The position numbers were made by a program, and so were the translations under genes. The notes under the pieces were generated by a model, which saw only the letters and a program-made list of their open reading frames with translations, was not told the origin of the DNA and made no database searches. DNA of 15,358 nucleotides from Roseibacillus sp. GTDB taxonomy: Bacteria; Verrucomicrobiota; Verrucomicrobiia; Verrucomicrobiales; Akkermansiaceae. The number at the start of each line of letters is the position of its first letter. The stretch's first letter is position 1. The stretch spans positions 1 through 15,358 of the forward strand of contig PBTP01000140.1 of NCBI GenBank assembly GCA_002729275.1, read 5' to 3'. Positions 10,374 through 15,358 of the stretch are shown here, one piece after another.

Positions 10374-12260
10374 ATGTCAAATCCCCGCACTTCCCCGGAC
10401 CCAAATCTGGACAGAATGCCTTCGGGCATCCCCTACATTATCGGCAACGAAGCAGCCGAGAGATTCAGCTTCTACGGAATGAAGACGATCCTCGCGGTCT
10501 TCATGACAAAATACCTTTGGCTCATGAACGACACTCCCGGCCAGGCCATGGGCGAAGCATCTGCGACAGAAAAAGTGCATCTCTTTACCTTCGCGGTCTA
10601 TATCACACCCCTGCTGGGAGCCTTCATCTCGGATGCCGTCTTTGGGAAATACAAGACGATCATCCGCCTCTCTGTTGTATATTGTGCAGGCCATGCCGCA
10701 CTCGCTCTGATGGGCATAAAAGGTGACGCGGCGATCTGGTTTGTCGTCGGGCTGGCTCTGATCTCCCTGGGATCTGGAGGCATTAAACCGTGCGTATCAG
10801 CTCATGTAGGGGACCAGTTCGGTAGATCCAACGGGCACCTTTTGACACGGGTCTTCAACTATTTCTACTGGTCGATCAACCTGGGGGCTTTTCTCTCTAC
10901 CATGCTCACACCGTGGCTTCTTGAGTGGTATGGTCCGCACCTTGCGTTCGGAGTTCCCGGGGTTCTGATGATCCTCGCGACGATTGTATTCTGGTTGGGA
11001 CGGAACCGCTTTATCCATGTTCCTCCCGGAGGAAAAACCTTTATTCGAGAGACCTTCAGCCCAGTGGGGATCAAGGCCATGGCAAAGCTTTCGGTTCTTT
11101 TTCTCTTCGTCGCGATGTTTTGGGCCCTCTTTGATCAAACCGCTTCCCGGTGGGTATTTCAGGCCAGGGAGATGGACAGAAACTTTCTTGGTGTCGAGTG
11201 GCTGGAATCCCAGATCCAAGCGGTCAACCCGATTCTGATCCTTACCTTCATTCCCCTCTTTACCTTCATCCTCTATCCAAAGATCGGAAAGATAATCAAG
11301 CTTACACCTCTACGAAAAATAGGGGCCGGACTATTCCTGATGGGTGCAGCCTTTATCCTGAGCTCTACCATCCAAGAGTGGATTGATGCTGGGAAAAGAC
11401 CCAATATTGGATGGCAGATGCTCGCTTACCTGCTCCTTACCGCGGCCGAAATTCTTGTCTCCATCGTGGCACTAGAGTTCTCATACACTCAGGCTCCTCG
11501 CACAATGAAGTCGATGATTCTCGGCCTCTTCCTCGCGGCGGTTGCCCTGGGCAATCTTTTTACTGCGGGAGTCAATCATTATATCCAGATTCCGGAGCCG
11601 GGAAATGGAGTCCAGAAGCGGCTGGAAATCGTTGCCGCGCAGAATCACAAGTCTACAGCCTACGAGACTCACCCGGGAAAAGACGGATCAAAAGGAACTC
11701 CTGATGACCTCGTCTACTCACTTCAATTCGGCAGCCAGATACAGGTTGCCGTACCTGGCTCGGAGTCCCTGGAGGTTGCTGCATCGAGAATCGAATCTTG
11801 GGTCCTTGCTAACGGCTCAAAATTACCCCGTAGTGAGGAGGGTGAAAATGAGTTACTGGGATTAAAGGACACATGGGGGCAACCTCTGAATTATCACCTC
11901 GAAAACAGTCAAACTGCCCGTATCACCAGTATGGGACCGGACGGGCAGCGACAAACCGAGTGGGATGTGGGCATTCGGATCAAGCTCAGGCAAGAGCAGA
12001 GGGCACTGGCTAAATCCTGGACGGAGTCCTTCCGCCCCGATCGTCCTTGGCTCGAGCGCCGCAAGGAGGAATTGGGCTATCGAGAGGAGCAGAACGAACA
12101 GGAAACAGGACTATTCACACGGAAATTTTTCGCGGGCGGAGGAGAGCGCCTCGAGGGAGCTTCCTATTACTGGTTCTTTACGGCATTGATGTTCCTGACC
12201 GCCATCATCTTCATCCCCTATGCACGATTTTACAGGGGAGAAACGATCCTTCAGGAATAG
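10374..12260 (+). CDS. POT-family proton-dependent oligopeptide transporter with large last-loop insert
   Basis: POT (PTR2) transporters import di- and tripeptides with protons through the inner membrane. The first helix carries NEAAERFSFYG (E26, E29, R30), the family ExxER-F-YYG proton motif. SGGIKPCVSAHVGDQF and FNYFYWSINLGAFLS are the PTR2 signatures. About a dozen membrane helices are visible up to residue ~403 plus a last helix at ~598-618 (YYWFFTALMFLTAIIFIPYA). Normal bacterial members have ~450-520 residues; this one has 628 because of an insert of about 190 residues (~404-596) in the last loop, predicted to face the periplasm. Residues ~463-536 of it resemble the C-terminal domain of the pseudopilin GspG (KDTWGQPLNY at 498-507, then SMGPDGQ at 519-525). 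The frame is intact through the insert, so this is not a fusion error. Substrate may differ from classic peptides. Confidence 0.92.
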   Translation: MSNPRTSPDPNLDRMPSGIPYIIGNEAAERFSFYGMKTILAVFMTKYLWLMNDTPGQAMGEASATEKVHLFTFAVYITPLLGAFISDAVFGKYKTIIRLSVVYCAGHAALALMGIKGDAAIWFVVGLALISLGSGGIKPCVSAHVGDQFGRSNGHLLTRVFNYFYWSINLGAFLSTMLTPWLLEWYGPHLAFGVPGVLMILATIVFWLGRNRFIHVPPGGKTFIRETFSPVGIKAMAKLSVLFLFVAMFWALFDQTASRWVFQAREMDRNFLGVEWLESQIQAVNPILILTFIPLFTFILYPKIGKIIKLTPLRKIGAGLFLMGAAFILSSTIQEWIDAGKRPNIGWQMLAYLLLTAAEILVSIVALEFSYTQAPRTMKSMILGLFLAAVALGNLFTAGVNHYIQIPEPGNGVQKRLEIVAAQNHKSTAYETHPGKDGSKGTPDDLVYSLQFGSQIQVAVPGSESLEVAASRIESWVLANGSKLPRSEEGENELLGLKDTWGQPLNYHLENSQTARITSMGPDGQRQTEWDVGIRIKLRQEQRALAKSWTESFRPDRPWLERRKEELGYREEQNEQETGLFTRKFFAGGGERLEGASYYWFFTALMFLTAIIFIPYARFYRGETILQE

Positions 12261-14589: not shown

Positions 14590-14811
14590 CCGCTTTCAGT
14601 AGGGCTCGCTCTAAAACGCCCTTGATGTTCAGCCCTCCCGTTCTTCGGGAAAGAGTTTTAATAGGGCCACGTGCATCATACGTCGAATTCACCAATTAGA
14701 ACGGAATTCCCTATAAAAATAGCATTTTCATGGAGCCTCTCTCTCAATTCTTTCTGCGATATCCAGTTAAGGATTTCTCTTGTCGTCAGGATCCACGAAA
14801 AACAGAACCGC
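14590..14811. other. Intergenic region before the BlaI-like regulator
   Basis: These 222 bases hold no credible gene. The first part has small dyads: AGGGCT (14601-14606) with AGCCCT (14631-14636), and TCCCG/CGGGA (14636-14650). The second part is A/T-rich, with two GAATTC sites at 14685 and 14704 and a TATAAA at 14712-14717 that could be a -10 element; no matching -35 was found. The regulator's promoter and any autoregulatory operator should be here. Confidence 0.4.
14636..14650 (+). terminator. Possible terminator hairpin after the thioredoxin-like gene
   Basis: TCCCG-TTCTT-CGGGA makes a 5-bp stem with a 5-base loop, followed by AAGAGTTTTAAT with a short T run. The stem is short and the T run is delayed by five bases, so the call is weak. 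An alternative pairing uses AGGGCT at 14601-14606 with AGCCCT at 14631-14636. Confidence 0.3.
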
Positions 14812-15358
14812 ATGTCGGATCAGCCCCGCCCATCTAACCTCGAGCTGCAAGCACTCTCAGTTCTTTACTCTCTCGGTTCATCTACAGTCTCCGTTATCCG
14901 TGATCATCTCCCCGATGAAAGACCACGCGCATACACAACTGTCCTCTCGGTAATGCAATGCCTCGAGCGAAAGCAACTCGTCGAACACGTGCGTGAAGGA
15001 CGATTGTACATCTACAAAGCAACTAAAAGTCAAGAAAGTATCGTCTCTCCACTAGTAAAAGATTTTCTCTTAAACGCTTTCGGAGGCAGTGCAGGTCGCG
15101 CTATTCTCCACTTACTCTCTGACGAAGCGTTAGCTCCAGATGAGAGAACCGCCGTTGAGCGCAAACTCAAACAGCAAAGAGCCATGGCTGCAAAGAAGAA
15201 GACCACAAAAAGAAAACCCGCTGCAAAGCGGAAACCTGCTGCAAAGCGCAAACCTGCTAAGAAGGCCGCTAAGAAGCCCGCTAAGAAGGCTGCTAAGAAG
15301 CCCGCTAAGAAGGCTGCTAAGAAGCCCGCTAAGAAGGCTGCTAAGAAGCCCGCTAAGA
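14812..15358 (+). CDS. BlaI/MecI/CopY-family transcriptional regulator fused to histone H1-like Lys/Ala/Pro tail (3' truncated)
   Basis: I translated this by hand from the ATG at 14812; the frame stays open to the window end (182 full codons). Residues ~8-70 are a BlaI/MecI winged helix: LELQALSVLYSLG, then AYTTVLSVMQCLERK and LVEHVREGRLYIYKA, a close match to the family pattern (YTTV, LxxKG-like, EGRxYxY). Residues ~82-122 fit the dimerisation helices (VKDFLLNAFGG, then LAPDERTAVERKL). From about residue 126 the protein becomes a basic tail: AAKKKTTKR, three KPA blocks (KPAAKR), then AKKPAKKA repeats. BlaI proteins normally end near residue 125. Histone H1-like tails occur in bacterial nucleoid proteins (AlgP, Hc1-like). 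The usual partner, a BlaR1/MecR1-type M56 membrane peptidase, would lie past the window. No Shine-Dalgarno is seen. Confidence 0.88.
   Translation, partial: MSDQPRPSNLELQALSVLYSLGSSTVSVIRDHLPDERPRAYTTVLSVMQCLERKQLVEHVREGRLYIYKATKSQESIVSPLVKDFLLNAFGGSAGRAILHLLSDEALAPDERTAVERKLKQQRAMAAKKKTTKRKPAAKRKPAAKRKPAKKAAKKPAKKAAKKPAKKAAKKPAKKAAKKPAK
15214..15258 (+). repeat. 18-bp tandem repeat coding KPAAKR
   Basis: Two full copies (15214-15231, 15232-15249) and a partial third of an 18-bp unit that codes Lys-Pro-Ala-Ala-Lys-Arg; the copies differ at third positions (CCC/CCT, CGG/CGC). They lie inside the regulator gene and begin its basic tail. Confidence 0.8.
15256..15358 (+). repeat. 24-bp tandem repeat coding AKKPAKKA, running off the window
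   Basis: A unit of 24 bases codes Ala-Lys-Lys-Pro-Ala-Lys-Lys-Ala, with about four copies to the window end. Copies are nearly identical in DNA; the only change seen is one GCC for GCT in the first copy. Such near identity suggests recent expansion or conversion, so copy number may vary between strains. The repeat continues past 15358, and an assembly break here is possible. Confidence 0.85.

Follow-up and report, generated by a model that had tools for sequence, protein, structure and literature searches.

A pseudopilin-like insert between the last two membrane helices of a POT-family transporter from Roseibacillus sp.

Results

The window analyzed here, a stretch of 15,358 nucleotides from Roseibacillus sp. 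(assembly GCA_002729275.1, contig PBTP01000140.1), encodes a proton-coupled oligopeptide transporter (POT) of 628 residues (positions 10374 to 12260; forward strand, as for all window coordinates below) that carries a 194-residue insert between membrane helices 11 and 12. Sequence comparison identifies in this insert a core resembling the C-terminal part of a pseudopilin, without the anchor helix, and shows where this core lies and how well it is conserved; the finding suggests use of the pseudopilin core outside a filament. Residues 404 to 597 (positions 11583 to 12164) form a single soluble segment that separates the final two helices, judging from an alignment to the POT structure 2xut and from hydropathy: the match to helix 11 stops at residue 408, that to helix 12, which is weak, begins at residue 598, and hydropathy peaks at residues 382 to 400 and 596 to 614 with no peak inside the insert (highest 19-residue mean, 0.54). 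By the same two methods, helix 11 spans about residues 382 to 403 (positions 11517 to 11582) and helix 12 about residues 596 to 617 (positions 12159 to 12224). The N-terminus of this transporter superfamily lies inside the cell and the loop joins an odd to an even helix, and the insert is therefore predicted to be periplasmic. A first-pass annotation of this DNA had described an intact frame with a periplasmic insert of about 190 residues between the last two helices, bearing a GspG-like domain without the pilin helix. The open reading frame is indeed unbroken, the placement between the last two helices is confirmed and that in the periplasm supported, and the insert has no prepilin signal and, by hydropathy, no hydrophobic helix; the likeness to GspG also stands, but the pseudopilin-like core covers only about 76 of the 194 residues.

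The likeness was assessed with hhalign by comparing a profile of 52 inserts, left from the 55 rows of the pseudopilin type after removal of three that were near-duplicates or contained unread letters, with a profile of 27 pseudopilin domains picked from genomes of the phylum by Pfam T2SSG, independently of the insert. The match reached a score of 49.3 (94.5% over 34 columns; 95.6% in the opposite direction) and comprises the hairpin and the calcium loop. One hundred column-shuffled pseudopilin profiles reached scores of at most 20.0 (at most 3.2%) and reversed profiles 2.6%, which rules out chance composition as the cause, and this difference, together with the positions conserved in the 52 inserts, places the likeness beyond chance. 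The helix region taken alone reached only 6.6% against the pseudopilins, and the helix part of the likeness therefore rests on a structural model. The predicted structure of the insert has an alpha/beta pilin-like core, as the first-pass annotation would have it, in which a helix, a short helix, and then three strands succeed one another as in pseudopilins; this single model supports a pseudopilin fold for the globular part. The core (residues 463 to 538, positions 11760 to 11987) includes a D-x-W-G-x-x-x-x-Y segment (residues 499 to 507, positions 11868 to 11894), the counterpart of DPWGNxYVY in pseudopilins, and a pseudopilin-type calcium loop, SMGPDGQRQTEWD (residues 519 to 531, positions 11928 to 11966), so that the order helix, LP..GL, kDxWGxxLxY, SxGPDG noted earlier is present in the sequence. 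A WLERRKEE segment (residues 559 to 566, positions 12048 to 12071) links the core to helix 12.

Database searches gave results of varying strength. Against all PDB sequences, the first six matches of the insert profile were GspG chains (E of 0.0087, then 0.095 to 0.52). At E ≤ 1, Pfam T2SSG matched 24 of the 52 inserts (best, 1.8e-5) and the NCBIfam GspG model 12 of 52 (best, 0.0062), but on the window insert alone T2SSG scored 15.3 bits, below the gathering score of 21 (E = 0.021); the expected T2SSG match was thus obtained between profiles and not from Pfam on the single sequence. A PHROGs search of the insert returned no families. Run against 5.8 billion proteins, the profile found five that pass E ≤ 10 among 8,000 scored, namely three with PTR2, an unannotated protein of 140 residues, and a T2SSG protein (P0058, E = 1.6e-3).

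The insert profile was also run over 387 genomes of the phylum, 194 of which match at E ≤ 0.01. Fifteen matches reach E ≤ 2.1e-38, 14 of them in frames of 591 to 724 residues and one in a 243-residue frame where the POT frame is broken. Many further matches lie mainly over profile positions ~92 to 132, and several of these weaker places overlap T2SSG matches by eye (for example, G010:C24, G066:C2, G075:C38, G099:C1, G102:C5, G122:C1, G131:C29, and G134:C3). Among 14 open reading frames from the next 15 loci, 11 carry the FTL[VI]E start typical of pilins and three lack it. Within the insert, the N-terminal half compared with the C-terminal half gave 54% and E = 1.3e-4 over 22 columns, which is no more than suggestive of a second pseudopilin end in the N-terminal half. 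We also asked whether the insert is a PKD domain of the kind found in sister POTs (below); this was rejected, as the comparison gave 13% over 49 columns covering the common end before helix 12.

T2SSG-like modules were also seen in other proteins that appear to be membrane anchored without a pilin start, as one or two copies in P0058, L141:1042-1662, and perhaps L134:1066-1683. By eye, P0058 (PF08334) has two such modules after a single hydrophobic stretch; the T2SSG match of L141 is below the cut-off (E = 0.0027), and L134 has no Pfam T2SSG match at E ≤ 0.1, its likeness coming via the insert profile only. As in the window, the module stands outside a pilin, but these proteins are not transporters.

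Two putative calcium sites lie in the insert. Residues 435 to 445 (GKDGSKGTPDD, positions 11676 to 11708; site I) exactly match the PERCAL motif, given in PMC3396595 as G-x-D-G-x-x-[GN]-[TN]-x-D-D; according to the same paper, calcium in pseudopilin 3G20 has as its side-chain ligands the aspartates that occupy positions 3 and 11. Strict PERCAL occurs in 19 of the 52 inserts and the looser G-x-D-x(6)-D-D in 45, with no strict match in the 14 PKD-type and other inserts or in 104,000 shuffled insert sequences. Only 2 of the 27 pseudopilins compared carry strict PERCAL, so that the motif by itself is no pointer to pseudopilins. In the calcium loop of the core (site II), D523 and D531 occupy the side-chain ligand positions 3 and 11 and are aspartate in 51 of the 52 rows each, while positions 7 and 10 deviate in the window; one pseudopilin from the window's own genome has a similar terminal loop, KGKDGEAGTDDDL. 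From these sequences we infer that both acidic loops may be calcium sites that stabilize the periplasmic domain.

Conservation extends beyond the ligands. D499, S519, G521, and W559 are present in all 52 aligned inserts and G502 in 51, and the GG..L.GA.Y link to helix 12 is nearly invariant. We compared omega in six pairs, two of which are unsaturated; in these two the insert has omega of 0.140 and 0.144 and the transporter core 0.037 and 0.039. The insert is constrained, yet looser than the transporter.

To describe the distribution of the insert, we kept the best 80 of 172 relatives from a genome scan as named loci, 76 of which gave a usable loop; L018 (frame broken inside the insert) and L040, L057, and L072 (partial, at contig ends) were dropped. 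Assigned by eye and by loop length, the 76 loops comprise 54 of the pseudopilin type, 12 of a PKD type, 2 others (one perhaps chimeric), and 8 of 15 residues, counts that are not frequencies because the scan began from insert-bearing proteins. Carriers of the pseudopilin type belong to Akkermansiaceae/Verrucomicrobiaceae, other Verrucomicrobiota, and Planctomycetota, the groups in which the first-pass annotation had suggested surveying for it. One carrier that can be cultured, Roseibacillus ishigakijimensis KCTC 12986, is represented by locus L046. The PKD/Ig-like inserts occupy the same helix 11-helix 12 loop of sister POTs (L061, L062, L064-L071, L074, and L084) in Verrucomicrobiota, Planctomycetota, Myxococcota, and Bdellovibrionota. 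Of the 14 non-pseudopilin inserts that were scanned, 12 are hit at E ≤ 0.1 by Pfam PKD_4 and 12 by K319L-like PKD, and the PKD-type inserts reach 0.4% against the pseudopilins. In most rows the insertion flanks (N..I at the start, G..Y..F before helix 12) are common to the three types of loop, and the last insert residues ahead of helix 12 (GA-Y) recur in most insert-less kin. Broken frames were seen in L018:5001-6885, where two frames meet within the insert near residue 457, and in L123, near residue 387; assembly error is possible in both. In one of the 14 inserts scanned, which we read as that of L073 (3924-4688), the POT frame runs on into a DNA polymerase B match (Pfam, 1.8e-7), perhaps on a chimeric contig, and this locus was therefore kept out of the trees.

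A survey of the phylum with a transporter-core profile matched 65 of 374 genomes at E ≤ 1e-20. At E ≤ 1e-60 the core was found in 14 genomes from the family to which the window belongs, all 14 with a strong insert match, and in 20 genomes outside it, 16 of which are listed with weak pseudopilin-like insert matches only; among the matches listed, the best outside the family was 3.5e-9, and four of the 20 genomes are not listed. Outgroup POTs have loops of 9 to 19 residues between helices 11 and 12, in line with the earlier proposal that the domain was acquired within the POT family, and these short loops and the phylum survey together indicate that the loop was probably short to begin with and that the domains were later gains. 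In a first tree, the pseudopilin-type rows lie on one side of a branch with support of 97/93. Two rooted trees included 25 of the 55 pseudopilin-type rows; the first holds very long outgroup branches, and the second drops five rows (L147, L154, and L157-L159). The pseudopilin type formed one group in 34% of bootstrap trees with the first and in 0% with the second, and both imply two changes for this insert. A single clade of pseudopilin-type rows was not rejected by an approximately unbiased (AU) test made with the second set of rows (P = 0.32), so the sequences are compatible with one origin. A single clade of PKD-type rows was rejected (AU, P = 0.00068), which may reflect two gains or losses in between.

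Pfam PTR2 matches the transporter at E = 2.7e-80 (270.6 bits against a gathering score of 27), and its top PDB match is 2xut. The highest-scoring NCBIfam model is TIGR00926 (oligopeptide symporter; 324.6 bits, under its cut-off of 821.6), which we take to represent the animal-type subfamily, and the cut-off of TIGR00924 is also passed (165.3 against 130.2 bits). POT hallmarks are an ExxERF motif on helix 1, a lysine on helix 4, and a glutamate on helix 10. In a 54-row alignment (50 with and 4 without the insert), E26, E29, R30, F31, K138, and E359 are invariant, and, counted by eye, they align with E21, E24, R25, F26, K127, and E419 of 2xut; the glutamates, arginine, and lysine presumably have their usual roles in POTs. 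By its sequence the gene encodes a POT-family importer, for which proton-coupled uptake of di- and tripeptides is predicted. The protein has 12 membrane helices; the span between helices 6 and 7 is 18 residues in the window protein against 40 to 135 in outgroup rows, and the two extra helices (HA and HB) of structurally known bacterial POTs are therefore missing. The insert-less POTs L160, L162, L167, and L169, from genomes of the same family, have a 135-residue span between helices 6 and 7, an expansion elsewhere in the protein.

The POT gene is flanked in the window by fabH on one side and a TatD gene on the other. Positions 14671 to 15358 encode a BlaI/penicillinase-repressor-like regulator (PF03965) with a long terminal lysine/alanine/proline repeat tail that resembles the tail of histone H1. 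A similar tail ends all 11 further relatives from neighboring loci, several of which are cut by contig ends.

Discussion

In this study, we describe a POT importer whose loop between helices 11 and 12 would have gained a periplasmic ectodomain composed of a pseudopilin C-terminal core and a second calcium motif. With GspG, EpsG, and PulG (T2SSG, PF08334), the insert shares the D-x-W-G-x-x-x-x-Y hairpin, the S-x-G-x-D....T-x-x-D loop, and a helix followed by three strands; it differs in lying inside a transporter without prepilin signal or anchor helix, in falling below the Pfam gathering score in the window, and in adding an N-terminal PERCAL part and a C-terminal linker. The exact PERCAL motif is shared with PERCAL proteins such as bacterial peroxidases and pseudopilin 3G20, with calcium binding in the window predicted. 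The PepTSo-type POT 2xut has the same transporter core, including the glutamates, arginine, and lysine aligned above, but has about 80 residues between its two matched halves, against 8 in the window, and no large insert between helices 11 and 12. In the PKD/Ig-like sister POTs, loop and core are as in the window and the inserted domain differs. The first-pass interpretation is on the whole partly supported, but it overlooked the PERCAL motif, the conserved ligand aspartates, and the PKD-type domain of the sister lineages.

With moderate confidence, we favor the view that the ectodomain is an accessory platform for docking or clustering. Calcium at the two acidic loops would steady the domain, which, tied to the C-terminal bundle, would ride on the transporter without being part of the transport path and would hold a periplasmic or cell wall partner, a peptidase being the obvious candidate. 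We infer this accessory role from several observations. Kin with a 15-residue loop have the same transporter core, which is thus complete when the insert is missing, and in sister lineages the loop holds an unrelated domain, which fits a platform better than a gate. The aligned glutamates, arginine, and lysine are invariant in rows with and without the insert, and the insert changes faster than the core. The gene neighborhood, in which 20 clusters (including the POT itself) recur in at least four loci and were named by eye or by Pfam, yielded no partner. Precedents for docking are the ectodomain of PepT1/2, which is reported to bind trypsin and to be dispensable for transport (PMC4597091), and the major facilitator superfamily transporter Rv1410, whose TM11/12 extensions are proposed to hand lipid to LprG (PMC10576003).

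Other functions deserve weighing. The ectodomain might act on transport itself, contacting the N-terminal bundle or the entrance and gating or speeding peptide entry, perhaps with calcium as a signal. The invariant W559 and the nearly invariant GG..L.GA.Y link could couple domain to helices, and another paper, by its title, reportedly finds that the PepT1 ectodomain facilitates transport, through contacts of such a kind; but close insert-less kin with the same core exist and the same loop elsewhere holds an unrelated domain, which leaves this reading unlikely. A role like that of a fused binding protein, in which peptides or peptidoglycan fragments would be captured by the domain and passed to the transporter, would fit the topology, but the best-conserved positions of the domain are hairpin and calcium-loop residues, and to our knowledge the pseudopilin fold has no peptide-binding role; we regard capture as improbable.

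Somewhat more improbable still is that the insert is a passenger of no functional consequence, or that its likeness to pseudopilins is a convergence on a calcium hairpin, given that it is kept across Verrucomicrobiota and Planctomycetota, that its omega is 0.14, and that the modeled helix, short helix, and three strands follow pseudopilin order. The most doubtful proposal is that pilin-like contacts with the machinery of type II secretion or of type IV pili place the importer nearby. Genes for T2SSG, T2SSF, and secretins do occur in the window's genome (three T2SSG matches, T2SSF in three frames, and five secretin matches, in G000:C86, C18, C54, C96, and others); however, the anchor helix, which pilin packing presumably requires, is absent, and 121 of 145 genomes from the phylum contain T2SSG genes, whereas the insert profile gave strong matches there in one family only.

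Extending the favored docking platform, the loop between helices 11 and 12 could be a hot spot that has repeatedly taken up unrelated ectodomains to dock peptide-releasing enzymes or wall components, with the pseudopilin version folding under the control of periplasmic calcium and with bacteria and animals as independent inventors; we offer this only tentatively. Animal PepT1/PepT2 (SLC15A1/A2) resemble the window protein as POTs with 12 helices, without HA and HB, and with an outer soluble domain among the helices of the C-terminal half. Their ectodomain, however, is Ig-like and lies between TM9 and TM10 (PMC8565842 and PMC4597091), and the pseudopilin-like ectodomain between helices 11 and 12 is probably convergent with it, not homologous.

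In published structural work, a large extracellular domain is attributed only to the mammalian homologues (PMC4597091), bacterial POT structures lack a soluble domain (PMC8565842), and bacterial POTs are described with two extra helices (both sources). By title or start of abstract, we found no paper on a bacterial POT ectodomain among those listed from the open-license literature, most subscription papers lying outside that scope. A bacterial POT lineage with 12 helices and a large ectodomain, which comes in at least two unrelated forms at the same loop, departs from this description. As a second, independent POT ectodomain with natural insert-less kin, it provides a clean comparison for the role of the ectodomain in transport.
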